Below the pieces are notes generated by a model that was not told the origin of the DNA, made no database searches, and saw only the letters and a program-made list of their open reading frames with translations. Below, one piece after another: positions 1,882-15,804 of a stretch of 64,000 bases of DNA. Each line of letters starts with the position of its first letter. Positions within the stretch are counted from its first letter, which is position 1. The translations under genes and the position numbers were made by a program. Where the stretch lies: NCBI GenBank assembly GCA_016742175.1, contig JACVCH010000007.1, forward strand, positions 62,001 through 126,000, read 5' to 3'. The stretch is from Rhizobiaceae bacterium. Its GTDB lineage: Bacteria > Pseudomonadota > Alphaproteobacteria > Rhizobiales > Rhizobiaceae.

Positions 1882-2901
1882 ATGAAGAAGATCGACATTT
1901 TCAACCACATCTGGCCGAAGCCGTTTTTCGATGCGCTGATCGCGCATATCGGCGAGATGACCGACATCACCATGCGCTCCGGCGCCGTGCCGATGATGAC
2001 GGATCTCGACCGCCGCTTCGAGGTCATGGACACGTTCGGCGAGGACTACCAGCAGGTGCTCTCGCTCGCCTCGCCGCCGCTCGAAAAGCTGGCCGGCCCG
2101 CAAAAGGCGCTCGAACTGTCGAAGATCGGCTCGGATTCGATGGCCGAGCTCTGCCAAAAATATCCCGAGCGCTTTCCGGCCTTCGTCGGCACCGCGCCGA
2201 TGAACAATCCCGACGCGCTGGTCGCCGAATGCCGCCGTGCGGTCGAGGATCTGGGCGCCGCCGGCATGCAGATCTTCACCAACATCGCCGGCAACCCGGT
2301 CGACTTGCCGGAATACGAGCCGTTCTTCGAATACATGGCGAAGGCCGGCAAGCCGGTCTGGCTGCACCCGGCGCGCGGCGAGAATTTTTCCGATTACAAG
2401 AACGAGAGCCGGTCGGAATACGAGATCTGGTGGACGTTCGGCTGGCCCTACGAGACGTCGGCCGCGATGGCGCGCATGGTCTTCTCGCGCTTCTTCGACA
2501 AGTTCGAGGGGCTGAAGGTGCTGACCCACCATGCCGGCGGCATGATCCCGTTCTTCGAGGGCCGCGTCGGCCCCGGGTGGGACCAGATGGGCAAGCGCAC
2601 GACCGATCGTGATCTGGCCGAAGTGCGCAAGGCGCTGAAGCGCCCGCATCTCGACTATTTCAAGGAATTCTACGCCGACACGGCTTCGTTCGGCTCGGCG
2701 AAGGCGATCGAGCACGCGATCGAATTCTTCGGCGAGGATCGCGTCATGTTCGCCTCGGATGCGCCGTTCGATCCCGAAGGCGGACCGATGTACATCCGCG
2801 AGACCATCCGCATCCTCGATGAACTCGACATCTCCGACGAGTTGCGCGCCAAGCTCTTCGAGGGCAATGCGCGCAAGTTCCTCGGGCTGGATGCGGCATG
2901 A
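1882..2901 (+). CDS. Amidohydrolase family protein (ACMSD / gamma-resorcylate decarboxylase-like)
   Basis: A 339-residue metal-dependent TIM-barrel hydrolase of the amidohydrolase-2 family, which includes decarboxylases (ACMSD, gamma-resorcylate decarboxylase) and hydrolases. Start ATG 1882 follows a good ribosome site (GAGGGAGG). Expected ligands: His162 in WLHPARG, the H216-H217 pair in LTHHAGGM, and Asp293 in FASDAPFDPEGG. The N-terminal motif reads DIFNHIWP, with Asn8 and His9 instead of the classical His-x-His, a variant I recall from ACMSD-like members. The ATG of the next gene overlaps its stop (ATGA). With an aldehyde dehydrogenase and a flavin monooxygenase downstream it likely acts on an aromatic acid or a ring-cleavage product; the exact reaction cannot be read from sequence. 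Confidence 0.82.
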   Translation: MKKIDIFNHIWPKPFFDALIAHIGEMTDITMRSGAVPMMTDLDRRFEVMDTFGEDYQQVLSLASPPLEKLAGPQKALELSKIGSDSMAELCQKYPERFPAFVGTAPMNNPDALVAECRRAVEDLGAAGMQIFTNIAGNPVDLPEYEPFFEYMAKAGKPVWLHPARGENFSDYKNESRSEYEIWWTFGWPYETSAAMARMVFSRFFDKFEGLKVLTHHAGGMIPFFEGRVGPGWDQMGKRTTDRDLAEVRKALKRPHLDYFKEFYADTASFGSAKAIEHAIEFFGEDRVMFASDAPFDPEGGPMYIRETIRILDELDISDELRAKLFEGNARKFLGLDAA

Positions 2902-4337
2902 CGACCGCGCTCAACTATGTCGGCGGCGAATGGGTCAAGGGCGCGGGCGCGCGCGACAGCCTGAACCCCGCCGATGGCAGCGTGCTTGGCTCTTACGAGC
3001 CGGGCACCAAGGCGCTCGCCGACCAGGCGGCGGCGCTTGCCCGCGAGACCTTCGAGACGACCGGCTGGGCCTCCTCGCCGCGCCTGCGCGCCGCGGTCCT
3101 GTTCGAATTCGCCGACCGGCTGGAAGCGGCGAAGGACGAGATCGCCGATCTGGTCGTCGCCGAGAACGGCAAGCTCAGGCGCGAGGCGCTGGGCGAGACG
3201 ATGGGTGCGATCTCGGAGATCCGCTACTATGCGGGGCTCGCGCGCACCGTGCTCGGCCGCACGCTGGAGACCATGCCCGGCAATTTCTCGATGATGAACC
3301 GCGAGGCGGCGGGCGTCGCCGCGATCATCGTGCCGTGGAACGCGCCGGTGACGCTGCTTGCGCGTTCGCTGGCACCGGCGCTCGCCGCCGGCTGCACGAC
3401 CGTCATCAAGCCCGCACCGCAGACGCCGCTGATCCATGCGCGGATCATGCGCTGCCTTGCCGACTGCCCGTCGCTGCCGAAGGGCGTCGTCAATTCCGTC
3501 AACGAGCAGGGGTCCGAAGTCGGCGAGGCGCTGGTCGCCTCGAGCGACATCGACGTCATCTCCTTCACCGGCTCGAGCGCGACCGGCAAGCGCATCATGG
3601 CGGGTGCCGCGCCGACGCTGAAGCGCCTGTCGCTCGAACTCGGCGGCAAGGCGCCAGCGACGGTGTTCGCCGATGCCGATCTCGACCAGGCGGTGCGCGA
3701 ATTGACCGGCGGTTCTCTGGTGATGGCGGGGCAGATCTGCGTCGCGGCGGCCAGGTTCCTGGTCGAAAAATCAATCGAGAAGGATTTTACCGACCGGATC
3801 AAGGCGGCGTTCTCGGCCGTGAAGGTCGGGCCGGGCGGCGATGCGCAAAGCCAGATGGGATCGCTCATCGACATGGGCAATCGCGAGCGCGTCGCGCGCC
3901 TGATCGAACAGGCCGGCGACGAGGGCGAGATAGTGCTGAAGGGCGGCGTGCCGAACGGGCCGCTGGCGCAGGGCGCGTTCCTGACGCCGACGCTGTTCAA
4001 GATCGACGATCTCGCCTCGCCGCTGGTGCAGGACGAACTCTTCGGTCCGATCGTCTCGATCGAGACCTTCGAGACGGAGGCCGAGGCGGTGAAGAAGGCG
4101 AACGCCACCGAATACGGCCTCGCGGCGAGCGTCTTCACGCGCGATCTCAACCGGGCGATGCGCATGTCGCGCGCCGTTCGCGCCGGCACGGTCTGGCTCA
4201 ACTGCCATGGACGACTTTTCGCCGAAGGCGAGACGGGCGGCTATCGCCAGTCGGGCCTCGGCCGGCTCCACGGCGTCGAGGGGCTGAACGACTTCCTCGA
4301 AACCAAGCATGTCTATCTGGAGGCCGGCGCGATCTGA
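2898..4337 (+). CDS. NAD(P)-dependent aldehyde dehydrogenase
   Basis: A 479-residue aldehyde dehydrogenase of normal length, in a 4-base ATGA overlap with the amidohydrolase and so co-translated. The proton acceptor Glu247 lies in LELGGKAP and the nucleophile Cys281 in GQICVAA; the nucleotide-binding PWNAPVTLLARSLAPALAAG segment and the C-terminal SGLGRLHGVEGL stretch are present. It oxidises an aldehyde to the acid with NAD or NADP in the cytoplasm. Position suggests it handles the semialdehyde made by the preceding decarboxylase-like enzyme or by ring cleavage. It resembles the betaine-aldehyde/hydroxymuconic-semialdehyde branch, but the substrate is not fixed. Confidence 0.9.
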   Translation: MTTALNYVGGEWVKGAGARDSLNPADGSVLGSYEPGTKALADQAAALARETFETTGWASSPRLRAAVLFEFADRLEAAKDEIADLVVAENGKLRREALGETMGAISEIRYYAGLARTVLGRTLETMPGNFSMMNREAAGVAAIIVPWNAPVTLLARSLAPALAAGCTTVIKPAPQTPLIHARIMRCLADCPSLPKGVVNSVNEQGSEVGEALVASSDIDVISFTGSSATGKRIMAGAAPTLKRLSLELGGKAPATVFADADLDQAVRELTGGSLVMAGQICVAAARFLVEKSIEKDFTDRIKAAFSAVKVGPGGDAQSQMGSLIDMGNRERVARLIEQAGDEGEIVLKGGVPNGPLAQGAFLTPTLFKIDDLASPLVQDELFGPIVSIETFETEAEAVKKANATEYGLAASVFTRDLNRAMRMSRAVRAGTVWLNCHGRLFAEGETGGYRQSGLGRLHGVEGLNDFLETKHVYLEAGAI

Positions 4338-4367
4338 TCGCGCCGACCCCATGCAATCAATGAACGG

Positions 4368-5954
4368 ATGACGATGACGGGCGAATTGGAACGGCAGGCG
4401 GATGTGGTGATCGTCGGCGGCGGACCCGTCGGCACGGGGCTGGCGATCGAGCTTGGCCAGCGCGGCATCCGCACGCTCGTCGTCGAGCGGTATCCGACGC
4501 CGCAGCGCGTGCCGAAGGGCCAGAACCTGACCCAGCGCACGATGGAGCATTTCCACTTCTGGGGCGCCGAAAAGGAACTGCGCGCCGCGCGCACCGTGCC
4601 GAAGGAATACGGCATCGGCGGCTTGACCGCCTATGGCACGCTTCTCGGCGACTACCACTATGACTGGCTGCAGCGCGAACTCGTGCGGCCCTATTATTTC
4701 ACCGACAATGAGCGGCTGCCGCAATATGCGACCGAGGACGTGCTGCGGGCGCGGGCGGCGGAAATCCCTGCTATCGAGACGCTCTACGGCTATTCGGGCG
4801 AGGCGATCGAAAAGGATGCGGACGGCGTGACGGTGACCGCCGTGCCGCGCGAGGGCGGTACGCCGGTCAAGGTCCGCGCGCACTATCTCGTCGGCTGCGA
4901 CGGCAGCAAGTCGGCCGTGCGCGACATGGCCGGCATCACGCAGACGCGTTCCGACCATGACAGGCTGATGGTGCTTCTCGTCTTCCGCTCCACCGGTCTG
5001 CACGAACTCCTGAAGCGCTTTCCCGGCAAGTCATTCTACAATGTCCTGCACCCGGACCTGAAAGGCTACTGGCAGTTCTTCGGCCGCGTCGATTTGGGCA
5101 ACACATGGTTCTTCCATGCGCCGGTGCCGGCCGATACGACGAAGGACAATTTCGACTTCACCGCCTATCTGCACCGGGCGGTGGGCGCGGAATTCGACGT
5201 GGAGTTCGAGCATATCGGCTTCTGGGACCTGCGCGTCGCGGTCGCCGACAGCTATCGAAAGGGCCGCGTGTTCATCGCCGGCGATGCCGCGCACAGCCAC
5301 CCGCCCTATGGGGGCTACGGCATCAACACCGGCTTCGAGGACGCGCGGAACCTTGGCTGGAAGTTGGCCGCGACGCTGCAGGGTTGGGGCGGCGAAAATC
5401 TGCTCGACACCTACGACGCCGAGCGCCGGCCCGTCTTCGCTTCCACCGCAAGAGATTTCATCGAAAAGGCGATCGAGAGCGACCGCGCCTTCCTCGAATC
5501 CCATGATCCCGAATGCGACCGGGCGGCCTTCGAGCGCGAATGGACGGCGCGCGGCTCAGGCGCGCGCGACGAGGTCAACGCATTCGAGCCGAACTATCGC
5601 GGCTCGCCGATCGTGGCGGGCGCGGGCGGCGCGACGAATGCCATCGGCGGTCACAGCTTCAAGGCGCGGGCCGGCCATCACCTGGCGCCGCGGCGCCTGT
5701 CGGATGGCGGGAACGTCTATGACCGGCTCGGATCGGGGTTCACGCTTCTGGCGCTCGGCGGCGACGACGGCGTCGACCGTTTTCGCGCGGCGGCGGACGA
5801 AGCGGGAATCCCGCTGGCGATCGTCGCGGACGATGCGGCAGGTGAGACGGCCGATTACGGCGCGCAATACGTGCTGGTGCGGCCCGACCAGTTCGTGGCC
5901 TATGCGGGCGATACGCTCGCGCCCGATCTGCCGGCGCGCGCGACCGGCCGCTGA
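4368..5954 (+). CDS. FAD-dependent aromatic-ring monooxygenase (PheA/TfdB family)
   Basis: A 528-residue class A flavoprotein monooxygenase. The N-terminal dinucleotide fold VVIVGGGPVGTGLAIELG, the DG motif (YLVGCDGSKSAVRD) and the second FAD motif (RVFIAGDAAHSHPPYGGYG) are all present, so it should hydroxylate an aromatic substrate with NAD(P)H and oxygen. The C-terminal 120 residues form the thioredoxin-like lid seen in phenol hydroxylase relatives. ATG 4368 is 30 bases after the dehydrogenase stop; a second in-frame ATG at 4374 is possible. It is the last gene of this operon and ends at a bidirectional terminator. The trio suggests hydroxylation, decarboxylation and aldehyde oxidation of an aromatic compound. 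Confidence 0.85.
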   Translation: MTMTGELERQADVVIVGGGPVGTGLAIELGQRGIRTLVVERYPTPQRVPKGQNLTQRTMEHFHFWGAEKELRAARTVPKEYGIGGLTAYGTLLGDYHYDWLQRELVRPYYFTDNERLPQYATEDVLRARAAEIPAIETLYGYSGEAIEKDADGVTVTAVPREGGTPVKVRAHYLVGCDGSKSAVRDMAGITQTRSDHDRLMVLLVFRSTGLHELLKRFPGKSFYNVLHPDLKGYWQFFGRVDLGNTWFFHAPVPADTTKDNFDFTAYLHRAVGAEFDVEFEHIGFWDLRVAVADSYRKGRVFIAGDAAHSHPPYGGYGINTGFEDARNLGWKLAATLQGWGGENLLDTYDAERRPVFASTARDFIEKAIESDRAFLESHDPECDRAAFEREWTARGSGARDEVNAFEPNYRGSPIVAGAGGATNAIGGHSFKARAGHHLAPRRLSDGGNVYDRLGSGFTLLALGGDDGVDRFRAAADEAGIPLAIVADDAAGETADYGAQYVLVRPDQFVAYAGDTLAPDLPARATGR

Positions 5955-6019: not shown

Positions 6020-7576
6020 TCAGGCGACCTTGCGCTTCTCGTTGAAGGCGATGTCGCCGACGACGCGCACGCGCACGCGGCGGGCGTCGCCGGGCAGGTA
6101 GGCGATCGGAATATCCTCGGTGTCGAGCGTGGTGATCGTGCCCGGCTGAGCGCCGGCCTCGATCGCGCGCTCGCGCGCCAGCTTCTCGGCCTCGGCGATC
6201 GCCGCATCGCGGGAGAGGCCGGAGAAGACCTGGTCGACCTCGCCGGAGACCTGCGCCATCGCCGCGCCGAGCGCGTTGGCGACGCCGGCATGCTCGACGC
6301 GCAGCACCTCGCTGACGCCTGCGAGCTTCTCGGGGATGAGGAACGAGCCGCCGCCGACCGCGATGAGCTGGACGCCCTCGGCCGATGTCTTCATGCGGTC
6401 GACGCTGTCTTCGACCATCTTCTCGATGCGCTTCAGAAGCACCGAGACGGTCGATGCATTCAGATGCTTCACGCGATCGCGGTCGCCGATCTCGACCAGG
6501 CCGGCGGCGACGGCGACGTCCGTGGTCGTCAGCGTCGAGCCACCGAATACCAGTGCTTCACTGGTGATTCGGTAGCCGACGCTGCGCGGTCCGATCGTGC
6601 CCCGATCGAGATCGATGATGGTGCCGCCGCCCAGCGCCATCGGAAGAAGGTCCGGCATGCGGAAGAGGGTGCGCACGCCGCCCACTTCCACGACATTGTT
6701 CGCCTCGCGCGGGAACCCGCCGACGAGACAGCCGATGTCGCTGGTGGTGCCGCCGACATCGACGACCATGGCTTCCTTGAGGCCGGTCAGGAAGGCCGCG
6801 CCACGCATCGAATTGGTCGGGCCGGAGGCAAAGCTGTAGACCGGGTTGGCGGCCGCGACTTCCGCCAGCACCACGGTGCCGTCGTTCTGCGTCAGGTAGA
6901 AGGGCGCGTGGACGCCCGATTCCTTCAGCGCCTGACCGAAGGCGCCGACCGTGCGCTGGCCGAGCCCTTGGAGGGCGGCGTTGAGGAGCGTGACGTTCTC
7001 GCGTTCCAGAAGCCCGATCCGGCCGAGCGTGTGCGACAGCGTGATGCGCGCGTCGGGCATGACGGAGCGGACGATCTCGGCCGACTCGACCTCGCATTCG
7101 GTGGTCAGCGGCGAGAAGAGCGCCGTGATGCCGATCGACTGGATGCCCGCGTCGCGGATCTGCATCGCCGCCTCGCGCACCGCGTCGCGGTCGAGCGGGA
7201 CGAGAGGACGGCCGTCATATTCGTGGCCGCCCTCGACCATGAAGCTCATCGGCTCGACGGATTCGCGCAGATCGTCCGGCCAGTCCACCATCGGCGGCAG
7301 CGAGGCGCCGGCCGGCATGGCGATGCGGATCGCGGCGACGCGTTCGAGCCGCGCGCGCTCGACGACCGCATTGGTGAAATGCGTCGTGCCGATCATCACC
7401 GCGTCGACCGGCGCGGCGTGGGCCGGCTGGCTCGCCGTGACGTGGCGGATCGCGTCGACGACGCCCTTCATCACGTCCGACGTGGTGGGGAACTTGATGG
7501 CGGAAAGAACGGTCTCGCCGTCGATGAGGACGGCGTCCGTATTGGTGCCGCCGACGTCAATGCCGATACGCTTCAT
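6020..7576 (-). CDS. Hydantoinase/oxoprolinase family protein (HyuA-like)
   Basis: A 518-residue protein with the hydantoinase A / 5-oxoprolinase fold: N-terminal ASKHA phosphate motif RIGIDVGGTNTDAVLIDG, the IGTTHFTNAVVER segment, a second phosphate region (VVDVGGTTSDIG) and the C-terminal ALGAAMAQVSGEVDQVF. Family members open cyclic amides (hydantoins, 5-oxoproline) using ATP. It lacks the HyuB-type partner and, at about 520 residues, is shorter than the roughly 700-residue HyuA proteins; this short form is usual next to DUF917 proteins. Its ATG overlaps the stop of the DUF917 gene by 4 bases, so the two are translated together and probably form one enzyme system. Confidence 0.86.
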   Translation of the reverse strand: MKRIGIDVGGTNTDAVLIDGETVLSAIKFPTTSDVMKGVVDAIRHVTASQPAHAAPVDAVMIGTTHFTNAVVERARLERVAAIRIAMPAGASLPPMVDWPDDLRESVEPMSFMVEGGHEYDGRPLVPLDRDAVREAAMQIRDAGIQSIGITALFSPLTTECEVESAEIVRSVMPDARITLSHTLGRIGLLERENVTLLNAALQGLGQRTVGAFGQALKESGVHAPFYLTQNDGTVVLAEVAAANPVYSFASGPTNSMRGAAFLTGLKEAMVVDVGGTTSDIGCLVGGFPREANNVVEVGGVRTLFRMPDLLPMALGGGTIIDLDRGTIGPRSVGYRITSEALVFGGSTLTTTDVAVAAGLVEIGDRDRVKHLNASTVSVLLKRIEKMVEDSVDRMKTSAEGVQLIAVGGGSFLIPEKLAGVSEVLRVEHAGVANALGAAMAQVSGEVDQVFSGLSRDAAIAEAEKLARERAIEAGAQPGTITTLDTEDIPIAYLPGDARRVRVRVVGDIAFNEKRKVA

Positions 7577-8652
7577 GATGCAAACACCGATTTGAATTCG
7601 AGGTCGTAGCCGAAGGCGCGCGGGCCGACATGTTCGAGGCCCTTCGGCGTCTGCAGGACGGCGGGCGCGGGCAGGGCGACGGCGGTGACGCGCTGGCCGT
7701 AGCGCACGGTTTCCGTGCCGATCGCTTCACCCGACACCGTGTCGAGCAGGCAGATCAGGTCGGGCGTCATGGCGATGGGCTGGCCATCGCGGAAGGCAAC
7801 GGCCCACTCGTTCTGGAACGACAATTCGAAGCTGGCGCCGCGATCGGCGTCGAGGCCCTCGATCTTCGCCGCGCCGCGCAGGAAGCCGCCGGTCGTGGTG
7901 CGGTCGACGTCGGTCACCTTGCCCTTGAAGAGCTCGACGCCGCCTTCGTGCTCCAGCACTGCGGCGACTGGGTCGGCATGGCGGGCGCGGGCGTCGAGGA
8001 CGGCGTGGCCGAGGCTCGTCGCCTTGGTGACGGTGTGGAGGACGCCCCAGTCCTTGACCTCGCGACCGGTGCGCGGCGCCTTGCACGTGGCCGAGGTCGA
8101 GCCGACTTCGGTGCAGACCTTGCGCGAGATGCGCTCCATCCACTTCCAGCTCGCCGCCCTGGCGACGATCGCCTCGTTGTCGCGGCAGTCGACCAGCGTC
8201 AGCGGGTACATCTGGAGGTCGCCGATGGCGAAGGACGTCATCTGCGCTTCGGGGTAGGCGCGGCCCATCGCGTCGGCGTCGACGACCGGAATGTCGAGCA
8301 TCGCGCCGGCGAGGAAGGGCGACAAAGCGTTGCCGCCGCCGATCTCCACGCTCATCACGGCGCGGAACGGCTTGCCGGTATATTCTTCCATCAACGTCAT
8401 GGCGCGGGCGAGATGGGCGGGATCGACGAGGCGTTCCTGGCCGACGAGCGGCGCGCCCATCTTGGAGACGACCGCGACCGCGTCGTTGTCGTCGAGCGCC
8501 AGCGGGTCGATCAGCCGGCATCTCCTGCCGTCACGATAGAGTTTCTTCAGGTTGAGCTGCGCGAGATAGGGGCTGCCGCCGCCGCCGGTTCCCAATATCC
8601 AGGCGCCCACGGCCAGCGGATCGATCTCGTCCGCCTCGAAGTCACGGATCAT
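7573..8652 (-). CDS. DUF917 family protein (S-methyl-thiohydantoin desulfurase-like)
   Basis: A 359-residue DUF917 protein. The family signature WILGTGGGGSPYLAQ is at residues 18-32, followed by the conserved VSKMGAP, EIGGGNAL and DADAMGRAYPEAQM segments. DUF917 proteins are poorly characterised; Pfam names the family after S-methyl-thiohydantoin desulfurase. They are typically encoded beside hydantoinase/oxoprolinase proteins, as here. First gene of the minus-strand operon; its start is 130 bp from the divergent AroM-LuxR gene, and a conserved palindrome lies between them. A role with the hydantoinase in metabolism of a cyclic amide imported by the nearby ABC transporter is inference. Confidence 0.85.
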   Translation of the reverse strand: MIRDFEADEIDPLAVGAWILGTGGGGSPYLAQLNLKKLYRDGRRCRLIDPLALDDNDAVAVVSKMGAPLVGQERLVDPAHLARAMTLMEEYTGKPFRAVMSVEIGGGNALSPFLAGAMLDIPVVDADAMGRAYPEAQMTSFAIGDLQMYPLTLVDCRDNEAIVARAASWKWMERISRKVCTEVGSTSATCKAPRTGREVKDWGVLHTVTKATSLGHAVLDARARHADPVAAVLEHEGGVELFKGKVTDVDRTTTGGFLRGAAKIEGLDADRGASFELSFQNEWAVAFRDGQPIAMTPDLICLLDTVSGEAIGTETVRYGQRVTAVALPAPAVLQTPKGLEHVGPRAFGYDLEFKSVFAS

Positions 8653-8703
8653 GTCTTGCCTCCAAATAATCGGCTAGAAGCTAGCTTCGCGGGCGGGCCG
8701 ACA

Positions 8704-8723
8704 ATATAAGGAACTGCCCCTAG
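8704..8723. promoter_or_regulatory. Putative AroM-LuxR operator, copy 1 (divergent promoter region)
   Basis: ATATAAGGAACTGCCCCTAG lies between the divergent DUF917 and AroM-LuxR genes. It matches the reverse complement of the element at 9792-9811 at 17 of 20 positions. The shared pattern approximates CTAnnGGGAnnTCCCnnTAG, a 20-bp palindrome the size of a LuxR-type box. The site is 52 bp from the DUF917 start and 60 bp from the regulator start. A second, unrelated inverted repeat (TGCTCA-CGAAT-TGAGCA, 8732-8748) lies beside it. Confidence 0.6.
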
Positions 8724-8782
8724 ATTGCGCTTGCTCACGAATTGAGCAGTTCGCAGGCGGCGGACAAGGAGCCTCGCGTCAC

Positions 8783-9721
8783 GTGACCATGCAGGATTTG
8801 AGCTCGGGAACGATATCGCCGAAAAAGGTGATGTTCGTCAGCGTCGGGCAGACGCCGCGCGCCGACCTCATCGGGGAAATGCTGGCCAATCTCGACATGC
8901 CGATCGAGGCGATCGAACTCGGCGCGCTGGACGGTCTCTCACGGCGCGAGATCGACGACCTGCGGGTACGTCCGGGCGAGACGAGCATCGTCACGCGGCT
9001 CGCCGACAACAGCGAGATCGTCGTCTCCAAGCCGCGCATCGGCGAGCGCATGGCGCGCCTAGTCGCCGGCTTCAGGCCGAACGAGTTCGACCTCGTCGTG
9101 ATCCTGTCGACCGGGCTGTTCCGCGAATTCGAAAGCACCTGCCCGACGGTCAACGCCCAGCGGGCGCTGGAATCGGCCGTCATCTCGCTGGCCGCGCAGG
9201 GCTCGTCGGTGGGGTTGATCCAGCCGCTGGAGCAGCAGATCGACGAACTCGAAATCCCCGCGCTCGACCCCTACCGTATCACCGCCAGCCACGCGGTGGA
9301 CGGCGACCGGGAATCGCTGGCGCGGGCGCTGTTCGACCTTGCCGAATGCGAGATCATCGTCCTGAATTCGGTCAGCTTTTCGGAAGCCGACCGCGAGATG
9401 GCGGCGAAGGTGACCGGCAAGCCGGTGGTGCTGGCGCGACGGATCATCTCGAGCGCGATTCGGCTGCTTCTCTACAGGCCGCAGCCGATCAGCCTGCCGG
9501 GCATGTCGGGCGAGTTCGCCGAGCGCGTCAACCGGCTGACGCCGCGCGAGCGGCAGGTCATGTCGCTGGCCGCCGAGGGCCTGTCCAACAAGGCCATCGC
9601 GCGCCAGCTCGGGATCAGCCCGAAGACCGTCGAAATCCACCGCTCGCACGTCATGGCGAAGATGGAGGTGACGTCCTCCGCGGCCCTCATCCGCATGGTG
9701 GTCCAGGCCGGCCATCCCTGA
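8783..9721 (+). CDS. AroM-domain / LuxR-HTH fusion regulator
   Basis: A 312-residue protein with two parts. Residues 14-230 are an AroM-like domain (VMFVSVGQTPRADLIGEM, then the ELGALDGLSRREI and VILSTG segments), homologous along its length to the free-standing AroM protein encoded next. Residues 251-312 are a LuxR/GerE helix-turn-helix (RLTPRERQVMSLAAEGLSNK, then IARQLGISPKTVEIHRSHV). GTG 8783 is chosen because AAGGAG lies 11 bases upstream; ATG 8789 would be too far from it. Where the paralogue has Cys104 and Cys191, this protein has Ser109 (STGL) and Ser196 (LNSVSF), suggesting it binds but does not turn over a ligand. Probable activator of the two flanking operons; the ligand is unknown. 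I do not recall this fusion as a described regulator family. Confidence 0.87.
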   Translation: MTMQDLSSGTISPKKVMFVSVGQTPRADLIGEMLANLDMPIEAIELGALDGLSRREIDDLRVRPGETSIVTRLADNSEIVVSKPRIGERMARLVAGFRPNEFDLVVILSTGLFREFESTCPTVNAQRALESAVISLAAQGSSVGLIQPLEQQIDELEIPALDPYRITASHAVDGDRESLARALFDLAECEIIVLNSVSFSEADREMAAKVTGKPVVLARRIISSAIRLLLYRPQPISLPGMSGEFAERVNRLTPRERQVMSLAAEGLSNKAIARQLGISPKTVEIHRSHVMAKMEVTSSAALIRMVVQAGHP

Positions 9722-9791
9722 CCGCTGCCGGCGAAAAGGGCACGCTGATGCCCGCGAATGCTGCAGCCGCGAACGGCATTTCATCCCTCAC

Positions 9792-9811
9792 CTAGGGGGA
9801 GTTCCCTATAG
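9792..9811. promoter_or_regulatory. Putative AroM-LuxR operator, copy 2 (aroM-ABC promoter region)
   Basis: CTAGGGGGAGTTCCCTATAG, 58 bp before the aroM start. It is an imperfect palindrome: 14 of 20 positions are symmetric. Read on the other strand it matches copy 1 at 17 of 20 positions. A short hairpin, AGTCC-AGC-GGACT followed by T5 (9810-9826), overlaps its right edge and could end the upstream transcript. A TTGACG box at 9825-9830 may be the -35 element of the aroM-ABC operon. Confidence 0.6.
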
Positions 9812-9869
9812 TCCAGCGGACTTTTTGACGGCTAGGCTTCGGCATCAGATTGCCTGAGGACCAAGCCGC

Positions 9870-10547
9870 ATGTCGCGCATTTCACGTATCGCCTTCGTCA
9901 CGATCGGCCAGACGCCGCGTTCCGACATCGTGCCGGAAATGATGGCGGAGATCGCCGCGGGCCTCGACGCGCAGCCCTCCTATGAGGAGTTCGGCGTGCT
10001 CGACGGGCTGGAGGGCGCCGCCCTCGACGCCTATCGCGCCCGGGACGGCGAGCATTCCTTCGCCACGCGCCTCGCCTCGGGCGAGGAGATCGTCTCGTCA
10101 AAGGCGCTGACCGAAGTGCGGCTCAACGAATTGCTCGCCGAGATCGACGGCAAGGGGTTCGACATCGTCGTGCTCCTTTGCACCGGCACCCGCATCGATC
10201 CCTTGAAGAACACGCTCGTGGTCGAGGCGCAGCGCATCGTCGATTCGACGGTCGAGGCGCTGGCCGCTTCCTGCCGCAATCTGGGCGTCATCCTGCCGCT
10301 GGAGCGGCAGGTGGCCGAATTCGGCCAGCGCCATGTGTTTGCCGGCAGCCCGACACTCGTGTCCGCCTCGCCCTACTCGGGCGGCGGCATGGCGGTTGGC
10401 GCAAAGGGCGTCGCGGACTGCGACCTCGTGGTCATGCACTGCATGGGCTACACGGCCGCCATGCTCGACGAGGTTCGCCGCACGGTCGACGCCCCGGTGC
10501 TCCTGTCGCGCCGCGTCGTCGCGGGCGTCGTGCGCCAGATGATCTGA
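9870..10547 (+). CDS. AroM family protein
   Basis: A 225-residue AroM-family protein, the same length as I recall for E. coli AroM. It has the N-terminal RIAFVTIGQTPRSDIVPEMM motif, FGVLDGLEGAALDAYRARDG, and two cysteines in motifs LLCTGT (Cys104) and MHCMGY (Cys191). The layout, with two cysteines at the ends of core strands, recalls the aspartate/glutamate/hydantoin racemase superfamily; that relation is inference. No function is established for the family. It heads an operon with a peptide-type ABC importer (the next start is 39 bases away) and sits near hydantoinase and DUF917 genes, so a racemase or isomerase step on an imported cyclic amide or amino-acid derivative is plausible. Confidence 0.85.
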   Translation: MSRISRIAFVTIGQTPRSDIVPEMMAEIAAGLDAQPSYEEFGVLDGLEGAALDAYRARDGEHSFATRLASGEEIVSSKALTEVRLNELLAEIDGKGFDIVVLLCTGTRIDPLKNTLVVEAQRIVDSTVEALAASCRNLGVILPLERQVAEFGQRHVFAGSPTLVSASPYSGGGMAVGAKGVADCDLVVMHCMGYTAAMLDEVRRTVDAPVLLSRRVVAGVVRQMI

Positions 10548-10585: not shown

Positions 10586-12175
10586 ATGATGAGGAAATTG
10601 ATTCTATCCGCCATGGCCGCGGCGCTGCTCGCCGGCAGCTTCATGGCTTCGCCTGCATCCGCCTTCGAGCGCACCGAGGATGGCGAGATCATCGTCTTTG
10701 CCGGCCGCCAGGCGATCCCGGTGCTCGATCCGCATGTGCGCTACGACTGGTCGACGCGCATGGTGCAGCAGGCGGTCTACGACGCGCTGGTGAAATATGA
10801 AGGCGACCCGGCCGAGATCAAGCCGTGGATCGCCGAGAGCTGGGAGACCAGCGAGGACGGCAGGACCTGGACCTTCAAGCTGGTCGAGAACGCGAAGTTC
10901 CACAATGGCGACCCGGTCAATGCCGAGGCGGTGCGCTACTCGTTCGAGCGCGGGCTGAAGCTGAACAAGGGCGTCGCATGGATGCTCAAGGACTTCCTGG
11001 CGCCCGAAGGCGTGACGGTGGTCGACGACTACACGGTCAAGTTCGAGCTGAATGCGCCCTATGCGCCGTTTCTGTCGTTCCTGCCCTGGTGGTTCATCGT
11101 CAATCCGGCCGAAGTTCAGGCCAACGAGGTCGACGGCGACTATGGCGAGGCCTGGCTGACCGAGCACGCCGCCGGTTCCGGCCCGTTCAAGCTCGGCCGC
11201 TGGGAGCCGAACGTGCTCTATGAACTGCAGGCCGTCGCCGACTACTGGAAGGGCTGGCCGCAGGGCGAAAACCGTCCCGCCGGCGTGATTTACCGCATCA
11301 TCCGCGAGCCGTCCGCCCAGCGCGCCTCGCTCCAGCGCGGCGAGGTCGACATCGTCGAGGGCCTGACCTCCGACGACTACGTGCAGATCGCCAACATGCC
11401 CGGGATCGAGATTCAGGACCACAAGGGCATGACGACCTTCGGCATCAAGTTCAACACGCAGCAGGGTCCGACCGCCGACATCAATCTGCGCAAGGCGATC
11501 GCCTACGCGCTCGACTACGATGCGCTAGTGCAGATCTACAACGGCGCCGCCTCGCTGCAGACGAGCCCGCTGCCGGACGCGATGCGCGGCCATATCGACG
11601 TCGCCGACATTCCGCGCCAGGACCTGGCAAAGGCGAAGGAATATCTCGCCAAGTCCGAACATCCCGAAGGCGGCATCACGCTGGAATATGTCCACGTCGC
11701 CGGCCTCGAGGAAGCGCGCCGCATTGGCCTGGTGCTGCTCGACAACCTCAAGGCGCTCAACATCAATGTCGAGATCAAGCCGGAGCAGTGGCCGAACATG
11801 GTCGCCAACGGCTCGCGCGTCGAGACGTCGCCGGCGATGACCTCGGTCTATGTGACGCCGATCTCGACCGACCCGGATGCGGTGGCCTACCAGTACCACA
11901 AGAACTCCTGGGGCCAGTATTACGCCATGGCGTTCTACGACAATCCGGAGGTCTCGCAGATGATCGACGACGCCCGCGCCAGCACGAACTGGGACGAGCG
12001 CGCCGACCTCTACGCGAAGATCCAGACGCAGATCGTCGCCGACCAGCCGGAAGTCTTCGGCATGCTGCAGAACCGCCGCTGGGCGCACCGCGACTACCTG
12101 AAGGGCTTCCAGTTCAGCCCGGTCCGGTTCACCGGCGAGGTCGACCTCTACCCGCTCTGGGTCGAGGCGGAATAG
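10586..12175 (+). CDS. ABC transporter substrate-binding protein (family 5, peptide type)
   Basis: A 529-residue extracellular solute-binding protein of family 5 (DppA/OppA type). A signal peptide covers about residues 1-27 (LILSAMAAALLAGSF, cleavage near PASA-FE). The mature part starts with the typical pattern of a dipeptide-binding protein (VLDPHVRYDWSTRMVQQAVY, then the W-E-S-DGRTWTFKL region). Start ATG 10586 follows AAGGGGAA; ATG 10589 is equally possible. The frame stays open far upstream inside aroM, but that part lacks a signal peptide and is not the real start. It is the binding component for the two permeases and the double ATPase downstream. The ligand is unknown; context suggests a peptide-like or hydantoin-like compound. 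Confidence 0.9.
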   Translation: MMRKLILSAMAAALLAGSFMASPASAFERTEDGEIIVFAGRQAIPVLDPHVRYDWSTRMVQQAVYDALVKYEGDPAEIKPWIAESWETSEDGRTWTFKLVENAKFHNGDPVNAEAVRYSFERGLKLNKGVAWMLKDFLAPEGVTVVDDYTVKFELNAPYAPFLSFLPWWFIVNPAEVQANEVDGDYGEAWLTEHAAGSGPFKLGRWEPNVLYELQAVADYWKGWPQGENRPAGVIYRIIREPSAQRASLQRGEVDIVEGLTSDDYVQIANMPGIEIQDHKGMTTFGIKFNTQQGPTADINLRKAIAYALDYDALVQIYNGAASLQTSPLPDAMRGHIDVADIPRQDLAKAKEYLAKSEHPEGGITLEYVHVAGLEEARRIGLVLLDNLKALNINVEIKPEQWPNMVANGSRVETSPAMTSVYVTPISTDPDAVAYQYHKNSWGQYYAMAFYDNPEVSQMIDDARASTNWDERADLYAKIQTQIVADQPEVFGMLQNRRWAHRDYLKGFQFSPVRFTGEVDLYPLWVEAE

Positions 12176-12239: not shown

Positions 12240-13247
12240 ATGCTGAGTTTCACATTGCGCAAGCTGGCGGCGCTGGTGGGGACCATGCTCGGCATTGCCG
12301 CGCTGACTTTCCTCATCACCAATGTCGCGCCGGGCGACCCGGCAAGGCTCGTCGCCGGCCCGAACGCGACCGAGGACATGGTCGAGACGATCCGCGTCGA
12401 GAACGGCCTCGACAAGCCGGTGGCCGAGCAGTTCGTCATCTACATGGGCGACCTCGTGCGCGGCGATCTCGGCACCTCGATCGTGACGACGCGGCCCGTC
12501 CTCGACGAACTCCTGCGCTACGCGCCCGCGACGATCGAATTGGTGCTGGTGGCGATGACGCTCGGCATCCTCGTCGGTGTGCCGCTCGGAATGCTCTCGG
12601 CGGTCTACCGAAATAGTTGGTTCGACCATGTGACGCGCATCTTCTCGATCTCGGGCGTCGCCATTCCGGCCTTCTGGTTCGGCATCCTGCTCCAGCTTCT
12701 GTTCGCCGTGAAGATGGGCTGGCTGCCGGTCTCCGGGCGGCTGCCGCTGGTCGCGCTGCCGCCCGAGCCGATCACGCATCTCCTCCTCGTCGACAGTCTC
12801 CTGCGCGGCCAGTTCGACACGTTCTGGACCGCGCTCAAGCACATCATCCTGCCGGCGGTGGTGCTCTCCTTCCCCTGCCTCGCCTCGATCCTGCGCGTGA
12901 ACCGCGCCGAGATGATCGAGGTGCTGTCCTCAGACCACGTCGTCGCGGCGCGCGCGCACGGCCTGTCGTCGCGCCGCATCGTCGCGCTCTACGCGCTGAA
13001 AAACGCCATGCTGCCGACGCTCGCCATGATCGGCCTGCGCTTCGGCTGGATGCTGGGTTCGACCGTGCTGGTCGAGACCGTGTTCGACTGGCCGGGCATC
13101 GGGCTCTACGCCGTCTCGTCCGCGCTCGCCTCCGACTTCAAGCCGGTGATCGGCGTGACGCTCCTGATCGGCTTCTTCTTCATCGTCGCCAACACGATCG
13201 TCGACCTCGCCTATGCCTGGATCGACCCCCGCCTGAGGAATGCGTGA
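12240..13247 (+). CDS. ABC transporter permease (DppB type)
   Basis: A 335-residue inner-membrane permease of the peptide/nickel ABC class. The N-terminal span (LAALVGTMLGIAALTFLI) and NVAPGDPARLVAGPNA are typical of DppB/OppB, and the cytoplasmic EAA loop (VVAARAHGLSSRRIVALYAL) contacts the ATPase. About six membrane spans. It ends with TGA at 13245-13247, and the ATG of the second permease begins on its last base, so the two should be made in equal amounts. Good ribosome site GGGACGGAG before ATG 12240. Confidence 0.92.
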   Translation: MLSFTLRKLAALVGTMLGIAALTFLITNVAPGDPARLVAGPNATEDMVETIRVENGLDKPVAEQFVIYMGDLVRGDLGTSIVTTRPVLDELLRYAPATIELVLVAMTLGILVGVPLGMLSAVYRNSWFDHVTRIFSISGVAIPAFWFGILLQLLFAVKMGWLPVSGRLPLVALPPEPITHLLLVDSLLRGQFDTFWTALKHIILPAVVLSFPCLASILRVNRAEMIEVLSSDHVVAARAHGLSSRRIVALYALKNAMLPTLAMIGLRFGWMLGSTVLVETVFDWPGIGLYAVSSALASDFKPVIGVTLLIGFFFIVANTIVDLAYAWIDPRLRNA

Positions 13248-14161
13248 TGACGACCAGCGACCTGACCACGCCGGTTCGGCTGAGCTTTCGCGAGCGCCAT
13301 GAAAGCCGCATCCGCCAGTTGCGGCTCTATGCCCATACCTTCGCGGGCAGCTTCTCCTCGATGCTCGGCCTCGTGCTCGTCCTCCTGTTCCTGGCGCTCG
13401 CCGCCTTCGGACCGTGGCTTGCGCCCTATCCCGAGCACACGACCGGCGGCTTCGACATGGCCGCGCGGCTGCAGCCGCCGAGCGCGACGCACTGGTTCGG
13501 CACCGACGAGATGGGCTCCGACATCCTCTCGCGCGTCATCGTCGGCGCGCGCACGTCGCTGTGGATCGGCCTCCTGATCACCGGCATCGGCGCGGGTATC
13601 GGCGTGCCGCTCGGCATCATCGCCGGCTACACCGGTGGCTGGACGCGCGCAGCGATCATGCGCTTCACCGAACTCTTCCTCGCCGTACCGGGGCTGGCGC
13701 TCGCGCTCGCCATCGTCGCCGCGCTCGGACCCGGCATCACCAACTGCGTCATCGCCCTCGCCATCGTCTGGTGGCCGGGCTATGTGCGCCTCGTCGAGGC
13801 GAAGACGCTGTCGGTCAAGGAAGAGCTCTTCGTCGAGTCCGCCCGCTCGCTCGGCGCGCGCACGCCCTGGATCATGTGGCACCACATCCTGCCCAATTGC
13901 TGGTCGCCGATCATCGTCAAGATGAGCATGGACATGGGCATGGCGATCCTGGCTGCCGCCAGCCTCGGCTTCATCGGCCTCGGCGCCCGCCCGCCCGCGC
14001 CCGAATGGGGCGCGATGATCTCGGTCGCGCGCAGCTACATGCCCGACTGGTGGTGGTATTCCTTCTTCCCCGGCGCCGCGATCTTCCTGACCGTGCTCGG
14101 CTTCAATCTCCTCGGCGACGGCCTGCGCGACATCCTCGATCCCCGGAGCCGTGAGCGATGA
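13247..14161 (+). CDS. ABC transporter permease (DppC type)
   Basis: A 304-residue second permease of the peptide ABC importer. It has the N-terminal OppC-type leader and first span (SSMLGLVLVLLFLALAAFGP), the HWFGTDEMGSDILSR motif characteristic of DppC/OppC, and the EAA loop ESARSLGARTPWIMWHHILP. The frame is open further upstream, but ATG 13247 in the TGATG overlap with the first permease gives the usual N-terminus. Its stop overlaps the ATPase start (ATGA). Confidence 0.92.
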   Translation: MTTSDLTTPVRLSFRERHESRIRQLRLYAHTFAGSFSSMLGLVLVLLFLALAAFGPWLAPYPEHTTGGFDMAARLQPPSATHWFGTDEMGSDILSRVIVGARTSLWIGLLITGIGAGIGVPLGIIAGYTGGWTRAAIMRFTELFLAVPGLALALAIVAALGPGITNCVIALAIVWWPGYVRLVEAKTLSVKEELFVESARSLGARTPWIMWHHILPNCWSPIIVKMSMDMGMAILAAASLGFIGLGARPPAPEWGAMISVARSYMPDWWWYSFFPGAAIFLTVLGFNLLGDGLRDILDPRSRER

Positions 14162-15804
14162 GCAACCTGCTGGACATCAGGAACTATACGCTCGACATCG
14201 ACACGTTCGACGGGCCGGTCCATGTGCTGAAGGACATCAACCTCACCGTCAGGCGCGGAGAGACGCTGGGCATCGTCGGCGAATCCGGCTCCGGCAAGAC
14301 CGTGCTCGTGCGCTCGATCCTCGGTCTCGCGCCGAAGCGGGCGCGGGTGGTGGAGGGGTCGATCCGCTTCGACGGCACCGACCTTTCGACGCTGGGCGAC
14401 AAGGGCTGGAAGAAGATCCGCGGCGTGCGGATCTCGATGATCTTCCAGGACCCGATGACCTATCTGAACCCGCTCTTTTCGATCGGGCGGCAGATCGGCG
14501 ACGTCATCGCCGCGCACAACCGGGCGACGGGCATCTCGATGTCGGCGGCCGGGCGCCGGGCGCGCAGCGAGGACTTGCTGGACCAGGTCGGCATTCCCGA
14601 TCCGGCGCGGGTCTGCGACCAGTATCCGCATCAATTGTCGGGCGGCATGCGCCAGCGCGTGCTGATCGCTATGGCGCTTTCGGGCAAGCCGGACCTGCTG
14701 ATCGCCGACGAGCCGACGACCGCGCTCGACGTGACGGTGCAGGCGCAGGTGCTCGACCTGATCAACGAACTGGTCGCCAAGCTGAACCTGACCGTCATCA
14801 TGATCAGCCACGACGTCGGCGCCATCGCGACGGTGGCGAAGCGCTGCGCGGTCATGTTCCGCGGCGAGATCGTCGAAGAAGGCGCGACCGAGGACATTCT
14901 ACGCGCGCCGCAGCACGACTATACGAAGCGCCTGCTGGCCGCCGTGCCGGAGATCGACGCGCCCCTGGCCGCGCGCGACGAACGCGCACCGGCTCGGCCG
15001 CTTCTCGAAGTGAAAGGACTCGCCAAGACCTATGCCGCCAAGTCCGGCGGCGAGGTGCGGGCGGTCGACGGCGTCGATTTCTCGATCGCGCAGGGCGAGG
15101 TGCTCGGCATCGTCGGCGAATCCGGCTCGGGCAAGTCGACCATCGCGCGGCTGGTGCTGCGCCTGGTCGAGCCGACGGCAGGCGCGGTCGCCTTCGACGG
15201 CAGCGACATCACGGCGATGAACGGCGAGGCGCTGCGCCGGATGCGCCGGCACATGCAACTCGTGTTCCAGAACCCGCATTCGGCGCTGAACGGCCGGCAC
15301 ACGATCGGCGATGCAATCGCCGAGCCGTTCCGCATCCAGTCGAAGCTCTCGCGCCGCGAGATCGAGGCCAATGTCGAGATGCTTCTCGACACGGTGCAGC
15401 TTCCGAAGGCCTTCCGCTACCGCTACCCGCACGAATTGTCCGGCGGGCAGAAGCAGCGCGTGTGCATCGCGCGCGCCGTCGCGCTGAAGCCGAAGCTCCT
15501 GCTCCTCGACGAGCCGACCTCGGCGCTCGACGTGTCGGTGCAAGCGCAAATCCTCGACTTCCTGAAACAGCTGAGGGCGGAGCTCGACCTGACCTATCTC
15601 TTCATCTCGCACGATCTCGCCGTGGTGCGCGAAATTTGCGACCGGGTGCTGGTGATGCAGCGAGGCAAGATCGTGGAACAGGGGCCGACGGCGCAAATCT
15701 TCGACGCGCCGACGGAGGCGTATACGCGGCAATTGCTGGCAAGCGCCCGCAAGACCGCACCGTCCTCGCTGCTCGCCGACGCGGAACTTGCGGCCGCGCA
15801 ATAG
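14158..15804 (+). CDS. ABC transporter ATP-binding protein, two fused nucleotide-binding domains (DppDF type)
   Basis: A 548-residue protein with two complete ATPase domains. The first (about 1-270) has Walker A GESGSGKT, signature LSGGMRQR and Walker B LLIADEP; the second (about 280-535) has GESGSGKS, LSGGQKQR and LLLLDEP. Each is followed by the oligopeptide-type C-terminal extension (for example APQHDYTKRLLAAVPE). It powers the upstream permease pair. It is the last gene of the aroM-ABC operon; only two bases separate it from the convergent decarboxylase gene and no terminator is visible, so the 3' ends of the transcripts probably overlap. Confidence 0.93.
   Translation: MSNLLDIRNYTLDIDTFDGPVHVLKDINLTVRRGETLGIVGESGSGKTVLVRSILGLAPKRARVVEGSIRFDGTDLSTLGDKGWKKIRGVRISMIFQDPMTYLNPLFSIGRQIGDVIAAHNRATGISMSAAGRRARSEDLLDQVGIPDPARVCDQYPHQLSGGMRQRVLIAMALSGKPDLLIADEPTTALDVTVQAQVLDLINELVAKLNLTVIMISHDVGAIATVAKRCAVMFRGEIVEEGATEDILRAPQHDYTKRLLAAVPEIDAPLAARDERAPARPLLEVKGLAKTYAAKSGGEVRAVDGVDFSIAQGEVLGIVGESGSGKSTIARLVLRLVEPTAGAVAFDGSDITAMNGEALRRMRRHMQLVFQNPHSALNGRHTIGDAIAEPFRIQSKLSRREIEANVEMLLDTVQLPKAFRYRYPHELSGGQKQRVCIARAVALKPKLLLLDEPTSALDVSVQAQILDFLKQLRAELDLTYLFISHDLAVVREICDRVLVMQRGKIVEQGPTAQIFDAPTEAYTRQLLASARKTAPSSLLADAELAAAQ

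Follow-up and report, generated by a model that had tools for sequence, protein, structure and literature searches.

The regulator locus and its neighborhood

We analyzed a 64-kb stretch of DNA from a Rhizobiaceae bacterium, referred to here as the window, in which a gene encoding an AroM domain joined to a LuxR-type helix-turn-helix (HTH) lies between two predicted target operons (Table 1). A second permease ORF is located between the listed permease gene and the ATP-binding ORF, and the annotation of the Neorhizobium plasmid pNCHU2750a gives the order binding protein, permease, permease, and ATP-binding protein. Annotation of the DUF917 gene as an S-methyl-thiohydantoin desulfurase was not adopted because the match scored 109.8 bits against a cut-off of 450. 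At the outer edges of the locus, genes for an aldehyde dehydrogenase and a FAD-dependent monooxygenase (positions 2898 to 5954, + strand) face the DUF917/hydantoinase genes, and a gene for a PLP-dependent decarboxylase (PF00282; 15807 to 17540, - strand) faces the end of the ABC transporter genes.

Table 1. Features of the regulator locus, with positions numbered from the first nucleotide of the window
Feature	Position	Strand	Basis and details
Hydantoinase/oxoprolinase A-like protein, second gene of predicted target operon	6020..7576	-	Pfam PF05378, PF01968
DUF917/S-Me-THD-like protein, first gene of predicted target operon	7573..8652	-	Pfam PF06032, PF20906
-10-like element TAGCTT, toward DUF917 operon	8678..8683	-	Sequence scan; 31 nt from dyad A center
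Operator-like dyad A, TATAAGGAACTGCCCCTAGA, in the DUF917-regulator intergenic region	8705..8724		Pattern search
AroM-LuxR fusion regulator	8783..9721	+	ORF and Pfam; 312 aa, starting at GTG, with an ATG in frame at 8789
AroM domain (residues 18-227) with racemase fold, predicted to sense the ligand	8834..9463	+	Pfam; model compared with 2eq5
Ser109 codon, aligned with first Cys (Cys104) of neighboring AroM	9107..9109	+	Alignments; column tied to 2eq5 Cys
Ser196 codon, aligned with second Cys (Cys191) of neighboring AroM	9368..9370	+	Alignments; 2eq5
GerE/LuxR HTH (residues 251-306), recognition helix SPKTVEIHRSHVM	9533..9700	+	Pfam; NarL 1je8
Operator-like dyad B, CCTAGGGGGAGTTCCCTATA, in the intergenic region before the stand-alone AroM	9791..9810		Pattern search
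-10-like element TAGGCT, toward AroM/ABC operon	9833..9838	+	Sequence scan; 32 nt from dyad B center
Stand-alone AroM, predicted active racemase/isomerase	9870..10547	+	Pfam E=1.5e-49; 225 aa, Cys104 and Cys191
Peptide-type ABC substrate-binding protein (SBP_bac_5), predicted target operon	10589..12175	+	Pfam; start chosen inside longer ORF
ABC transporter permease	12240..13247	+	Pfam
Probable ABC transporter ATP-binding protein	14158..15804	+	ORF list only; order as in pNCHU2750a

The genes near the regulator were compared across 58 loci that carry such a fusion (including L154, described below). Within 9 kb of the fusion gene, DUF917 and hydantoinase A genes were each found at 57 loci, an ATP-binding ABC subunit at 55, a peptide-type binding protein at 54, and a stand-alone AroM gene at 51, in 43 cases directly downstream. 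The DUF917 gene was divergent from and adjacent to the fusion gene at 53 loci. The downstream genes vary: Ketogulonicigenium has an M20-type hydrolase, Shinella has an OPT transporter and an Asp/Glu racemase family gene, and locus L112 has an OPT transporter. Locus L107 (3526 to 11998) has a luciferase-like monooxygenase, and its fusion is flanked on both sides by a DUF917/hydantoinase-A pair, giving two pairs in all. A DUF1177 gene adjoins AroM in a Paenibacillus plasmid (L037, 6963 to 8675) and one of the two fusions at L096 (4351 to 6364).

Genes for AroM, DUF917, and hydantoin racemases are enriched in clusters for cyclodipeptide oxidases that lack CDPS genes (PMC11055893, 2024). The same source suggested isomerase activity for AroM, noted that its predicted structure is nearly identical to those of hydantoin and Glu/Asp racemases, and described DUF917 and AroM proteins as experimentally uncharacterized as of 2024. 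Thus, a functional idea for AroM does exist, which qualifies the statement of the original prediction that AroM has no established function. AroM, DUF917, and dipeptide-type ABC transporters co-occur in those clusters, as they do here; the word LuxR does not appear in the main text of that paper, and we found no mention there of a fusion regulator.

Architecture of the fusion protein

The original prediction placed an AroM domain at residues 14 to 230 and a GerE/LuxR domain at residues 251 to 312, limits that are within a few residues of those given by Pfam. Residues 18 to 227 matched AroM (PF07302) nearly over the full profile (positions 3 to 216 of 219; E=1.3e-41) with 143 bits, well above the curated cut-off of 23.8, and residues 251 to 306 matched GerE (PF00196) with E=4.7e-23 and 81 bits against a cut-off of 23.5. 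The score of 124 bits with the NCBIfam AroM model was below the equivalog cut-off of 198 bits. The other NCBIfam matches listed were to HTH-type models, and a dedicated model for the AroM-LuxR architecture was present neither in the Pfam table nor among the 25 of 29 NCBIfam families listed.

An AlphaFold2 model of the whole protein had two confidently predicted domains (mean pLDDT 85.1) joined by a low-confidence linker (residues 233 to 240). The N-terminal domain of the model resembled hydantoin racemase 2eq5 (Z 16.6, rmsd 3.0, 190 residues aligned) and allantoin racemase 5lg5 (Z 16.0), a similarity that assigns the predicted model to the fold of the Asp/Glu/hydantoin racemase superfamily. 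The C-terminal domain, a four-helix GerE HTH as found in LuxR/FixJ-type proteins, resembled NarL 1je8 (Z 13.1, rmsd 1.0, 67 residues aligned), and the fusion profile matched FixJ 1x3u at 4.5e-25. In place of the phosphoacceptor receiver domain of FixJ and NarL or the autoinducer-binding domain of LuxR quorum-sensing receptors, neither of which was among the families in the Pfam table, the N terminus carries AroM. These results bear out the proposed joining of the two domains and its enzyme-like fold.

Distribution of the family

The genome from which the window is derived has two PF07302 matches, the fusion and the stand-alone AroM, both at the locus described here. Of the genomes sampled, 15 of 385 from the class had PF07302, as did 16 of 297 from the family, 13 of the latter above the cut-off. 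Of the 22 matching records among PLSDB plasmids, 6 had a query coverage of 80% or more, four of them from Ketogulonicigenium and the others from Neorhizobium and Shinella. The regions fetched first yielded 24 fusions and 33 other AroM-like ORFs, and 72 loci came from a scan of genome contigs in which the AroM parts of 12 fusions served as queries. After 21 ORFs with identical AroM domains were dropped, the pooled set contained 58 ORFs with AroM and an HTH and 100 without an HTH, fragments included. The 58 fusions include L154, which is half of a split gene; the 57 others are intact.

The domain search across genomes that the original prediction called for thus recovered the architecture repeatedly. 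Because 57 intact ORFs with non-identical AroM domains share it, it is attributable neither to chance nor to an assembly artifact. All fusions for which the record or kinship gives a class are from Alphaproteobacteria (Rhizobiaceae, other Hyphomicrobiales, Rhodobacterales, and Kiloniellales); two records, L157 and L161, are assigned only as Pseudomonadota and Proteobacteria. No fusion outside Alphaproteobacteria was found among scanned loci of stated class, a weak absence because the scan patterns were themselves derived from fusions. In a survey of the phylum AroM was present in 14 of 398 genomes, including that of the window, and none of the 12 further loci fetched from this survey had an HTH on AroM.

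In Mesorhizobium sediminum (L154, 9965 to 10902) the fusion is split into ORFs of 144 and 164 aa with a dyad still upstream, which would reflect recent decay or a sequencing error. An ORF on a Fuscovulum plasmid (L036, 2563 to 3438) encodes a LuxR-type protein whose N-terminal ~220 residues had no Pfam family at E≤1e-5. This protein (H8), which was matched from residue 175 onward, was rejected as a relative because Pfam shows no AroM domain.

Loss of the racemase cysteines and probable origin of the predicted sensor domain

Most amino acid racemases of this type use a pair of cysteines as bases, and active Cys/Thr exceptions exist (PMC8142540). When the profile of stand-alone AroM proteins was compared with solved structures, hydantoin racemase 2eq5 was matched with E=4.4e-5, and each of the two AroM cysteines aligned onto a cysteine of 2eq5. 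All 91 stand-alone AroMs compared with the fusions have the Cys/Cys pair. None of the 57 intact fusions has a cysteine at either site: the first is occupied by Ser (48 fusions), Thr (6), Met (2), or Ala (1), and the second by Ser (55) or Ala (2). This count omits four remote ORFs (L108, L109, L110, and L118), three fragments, and all of L154, including its intact stand-alone AroM. With S109 and S196, the fusion in the window has neither the two catalytic cysteines of active racemases nor the Cys/Thr combination of some members.

Other features of the family are retained. At thirteen other positions a single residue is shared by the two groups and occurs in 88% or more of the fusions and likewise of the stand-alone AroMs (G22, Q23, P25, R26, G47, L49, D50, T110, G111, G144, P148, Q152, and P214). 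P168, which is invariant in the 91 stand-alone proteins, is not retained in the fusions, and the pocket may therefore differ.

It cannot be said that every stand-alone AroM has two cysteines, because 8 of 13 further AroMs carry Ser at the first site and retain only the second Cys; the remaining 5 retain both. The eight are the AroM of Escherichia coli K-12 (L195, 2929 to 3606) and those of seven genomes of family f242 (L197 to L200 and L202 to L204), and two of the remaining five, L196 and L201, also belong to this family. Thus, the name AroM covers proteins with different active sites. The four remote AroM-like ORFs have neither cysteine. Three of them, from other genomes of the same family as the window (L108, 8883 to 9668; L109, 8440 to 9225; L110, 8526 to 9557), have no HTH and form a separate divergent group, and the fourth (L118, 8713 to 10383), from the same class, is an ORF of 556 aa in which the AroM-like stretch is confined to the C-terminal part.

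In a phylogenetic tree of 95 sequences (32 fusions and 63 stand-alone AroMs), all the fusions fell on one side of a single branch (SH-aLRT 91). The fusion clade adjoins the stand-alone AroMs encoded at these alphaproteobacterial loci, with SH-aLRT values of 85 for the latter and 94 for the union. The tree was a quick, unrooted search without bootstrap, made from 149 rows that had been thinned at 85% identity and that omitted L108, L109, L110, L118, and five fragments; several rows are long. The simplest reading of these patterns is that an AroM gene was duplicated, the copy became joined with a FixJ-like HTH, and both cysteines were lost. The most fitting interpretation of the fused domain is that of a pseudoenzyme acting as a sensor. 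On two points the original prediction needs amending: the protein is one member of a family forming one clade in the tree, and its AroM part is a paralogue that has the racemase fold and lacks both catalytic cysteines.

Operator-like dyads and promoter geometry

Alignment of the regions between DUF917 and fusion genes revealed a conserved dyad. In the window, the 20-bp dyad TATAGGGG-N4-CCCCTATA with three or fewer mismatches occurs only at the two positions listed in Table 1, both in promoter regions flanking the regulator gene. Shuffled sequences of the window gave no matches to this pattern (mean 0.00) and a mean of 0.02 for a related pattern. There is no genome-wide excess of the dyad, which was found at four places in 4.3 Mb at the same threshold, two of them the dyads of the window. 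The backwards control gave an equal number, which indicates that the position of the dyads is special and their number is not.

Two dyad classes were recognized across the 58 loci, which include many close relatives. In the 330 bp preceding the fused AroM domain, dyad 1 (M1, four or fewer mismatches) was found 35 times, and in the 200 bp around and after the fusion stop codon it was found 36 times. The remaining 1.12 Mb held 9 occurrences, a density at which 0.15 and 0.09 occurrences, respectively, would be expected in these two regions. Dyad 2 (M2, ATACGTG-N4-CACGTAT, three or fewer mismatches), which was found by reading palindromes in loci that mostly lacked dyad 1, occurred 10 times upstream, 9 times downstream, and 8 times elsewhere.

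The dyads are at a fixed distance from -10-like elements. Among non-redundant loci, a TAnnnT hexamer began 31 to 33 nt from the dyad center in 36 of 41 cases, comprising 17 of 20 on the DUF917 side and 19 of 21 on the side of the downstream operon. In the opposite directions such a hexamer was present in 2 of 20 cases toward the fusion gene, giving no sign that the regulator's own gene is under similar promoter control, and in none of 21 cases backwards from the second site. Other three-position windows had a mean of 0.20 to 0.68 and a maximum of 3. With the spacing set to 16 to 18 nt, 27 of 36 cases offered no better match to TTGACA than three of six positions. A sigma-70 consensus scan of positions 8600 to 9900 found no promoters, a result that is in line with weak -35 elements and is not proof of them. 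If transcription starts ~12 nt after the first T of the hexamer, as we infer, the center of the dyad would be at approximately -43.5 to -44.5. For comparison, lux boxes are 20-bp dyads centered at -42.5 (PMC7585371, PMC3376562). This geometry favors activation of the two operons.

The dyad class appears to track one residue of the recognition helix. Among 32 non-redundant fusions, those in which the residue following HR[SA] is N, H, K, Q, or S had dyad 1 in 16 cases, dyad 2 in 1, and neither in 3, and those with R at this position had dyad 2 in 11 cases and neither in 1. Thus, the exceptions are four rows with neither dyad and one contrary row. The shuffles for this comparison were first-order Markov resamplings, 100 per locus. 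The association lends support to a link between helix and dyad and is not a clean test of it, because dyad 2 was defined from loci without dyad 1, which introduces some circularity, and because the rows share ancestry.

Proposed mechanism and alternatives

We consider it probable that the fusion protein is a one-component activator whose sensor is a catalytically dead AroM paralogue with the racemase fold. The fused domain, which is paralogous to the pathway enzyme AroM and keeps the fold and most of the shared invariant residues, would probably bind a small ring-type metabolite of the pathway without turnover. The presence of DUF917, hydantoinase A, AroM, and a peptide-type transporter makes a hydantoin-, lactam-, or cyclic-dipeptide (diketopiperazine)-like ring the most likely class of ligand. 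Ligand binding would rearrange the C-terminal LuxR/FixJ-type domains so that they sit as a dimer on the 20-bp dyad. Such dimers, positioned near -44 in the promoters of the DUF917-hydantoinase A operon and of the operon for AroM and the peptide-type ABC transporter, would act as class-II activators that substitute for the -35 element. The operator-like sites, the gene neighborhood, and the loss of the cysteines are what suggest a one-component regulator with an enzyme-like fold as its sensor, as had been proposed from the domain arrangement.

A less likely possibility is that the protein is a repressor that occupies both promoters and departs upon binding a pathway substrate. Many catabolic one-component regulators are repressors, and since the dyad ends only ~21 nt before the -10-like element begins, the bound protein would cover the -35 region. 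However, the fixed spacing of 31 to 33 nt to the -10-like element together with the poor -35 matches fits an activator that replaces the -35 element, and the placement of the dyads resembles that of lux boxes (PMC7585371, PMC3376562).

It is rather improbable that the fused AroM domain is instead a docking module that pairs with the stand-alone AroM, the state or abundance of which would then control DNA binding. Racemase-fold proteins often dimerize, and the frequent proximity of a stand-alone AroM gene (51 of 58 loci) and the adjoining positions of the two groups in the tree are in keeping with such a partnership. However, seven of the 58 loci have no stand-alone AroM within the 9 kb examined; in one of them (L112, genome G294) stand-alone AroMs are encoded elsewhere in the genome. 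In genomes G563, G659, and G790 the fusion is the sole PF07302 match, yet dyad-2-like sites with 3, 3, and 1 mismatches, respectively, lie beside it. Dyads are also present beside the fusion of the Ketogulonicigenium plasmid, which has no nearby stand-alone AroM, and that of Shinella, which has the Asp/Glu racemase family gene in place of AroM.

There is little to recommend the idea that the fused domain is a trigger enzyme, still catalytic and moonlighting as a regulator. The retained fold and shared residues would permit this, as would the replacement of one cysteine by Thr in some Asp/Glu racemases (PMC8142540). Cys-to-Ser mutants of glutamate racemase retained chloroglutamate elimination (PMC8142540), and with the active Cys/Thr members this means that residual chemistry of the fused domain is possible. 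However, both cysteines are missing in all 57 intact fusions, in comparison with the E. coli-type AroMs, which lack only the first. Least probable of all, with a very slight chance, is that the dyads serve another regulator and the fusion is an unrelated neighbor, because the dyad class shifts with the fusion's own recognition helix and the sites flank the fusion gene even in distant relatives.

An extension of the preferred activator model combines these elements into an enzyme-sensor pair born by duplication, with chirality-blind sensing, control of two promoters, and rewiring of the operator at one position; as a joint proposition this is tentative, and we regard it as more doubtful than not. 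A racemase-fold enzyme would have been duplicated inside its own gene cluster, with AroM processing a ring compound and the copy without acid/base cysteines sensing the same compound. Because the pocket of a racemase is pseudo-symmetric and takes both enantiomers, the sensor would be blind to chirality. It would then drive uptake, racemization, and ring opening from the two promoters, and its operator specificity may have been rewired through one position of the recognition helix.

Relation to known regulators and significance

The fusion resembles FixJ/NarL/LuxR-type factors in its C-terminal GerE HTH, in the 20-bp dyad predicted to be its operator, and in the inferred position of this dyad, near that of lux boxes (-42.5; PMC7585371, PMC3376562). 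It differs in having a racemase fold instead of a receiver or AHL-binding domain. Its likeness to the AroM family and the Asp/Glu/hydantoin racemase superfamily consists of the Pfam match, the fold, and the GQxPR, LD, and TG motifs, and it differs from them by the loss of both catalytic cysteines and the attached HTH.

One-component regulators that use an enzyme fold as the sensor include MocR/GabR, ROK/NagC, and BzdR. They share with the fusion the recruitment of an enzyme fold as a sensor, and their folds and HTH families are different; to our knowledge, none of them uses the Asp/Glu racemase fold. In a Foldseek search with the fusion model, the N-terminal sensor domain of PrpR (2pju) was matched loosely (E=3.9e-5, TMq 0.28, rmsd 8.5). 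The output domain of PrpR is of the sigma-54 type and differs from that of the fusion.

Among the matches listed in a search of the open-access literature, no description of an AroM-LuxR fusion or of a role for it as a regulator was found. The fusions thus appear to represent an undescribed family of one-component activators. The proposal of a new class of regulator is narrowed by the fact that enzyme-derived one-component sensors are known as a concept, of which the AroM-based sensor would be a new variant. The family is easily overlooked because the public records examined here label these proteins "AroM family protein" or "hypothetical protein."

AroM has so far been a name without a characterized function, and a sensor derived from a dead paralogue, with predicted operators, makes the family testable. 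Such a sensor could be used as a reporter for finding the compound bound by AroM and the sensor. The fusions also provide what appears to be a clear case of the evolution of a sensor from an enzyme, in one clade, with both catalytic residues lost and the dyad and recognition helix covarying, as well as a predicted control system for DUF917/hydantoinase pathways.
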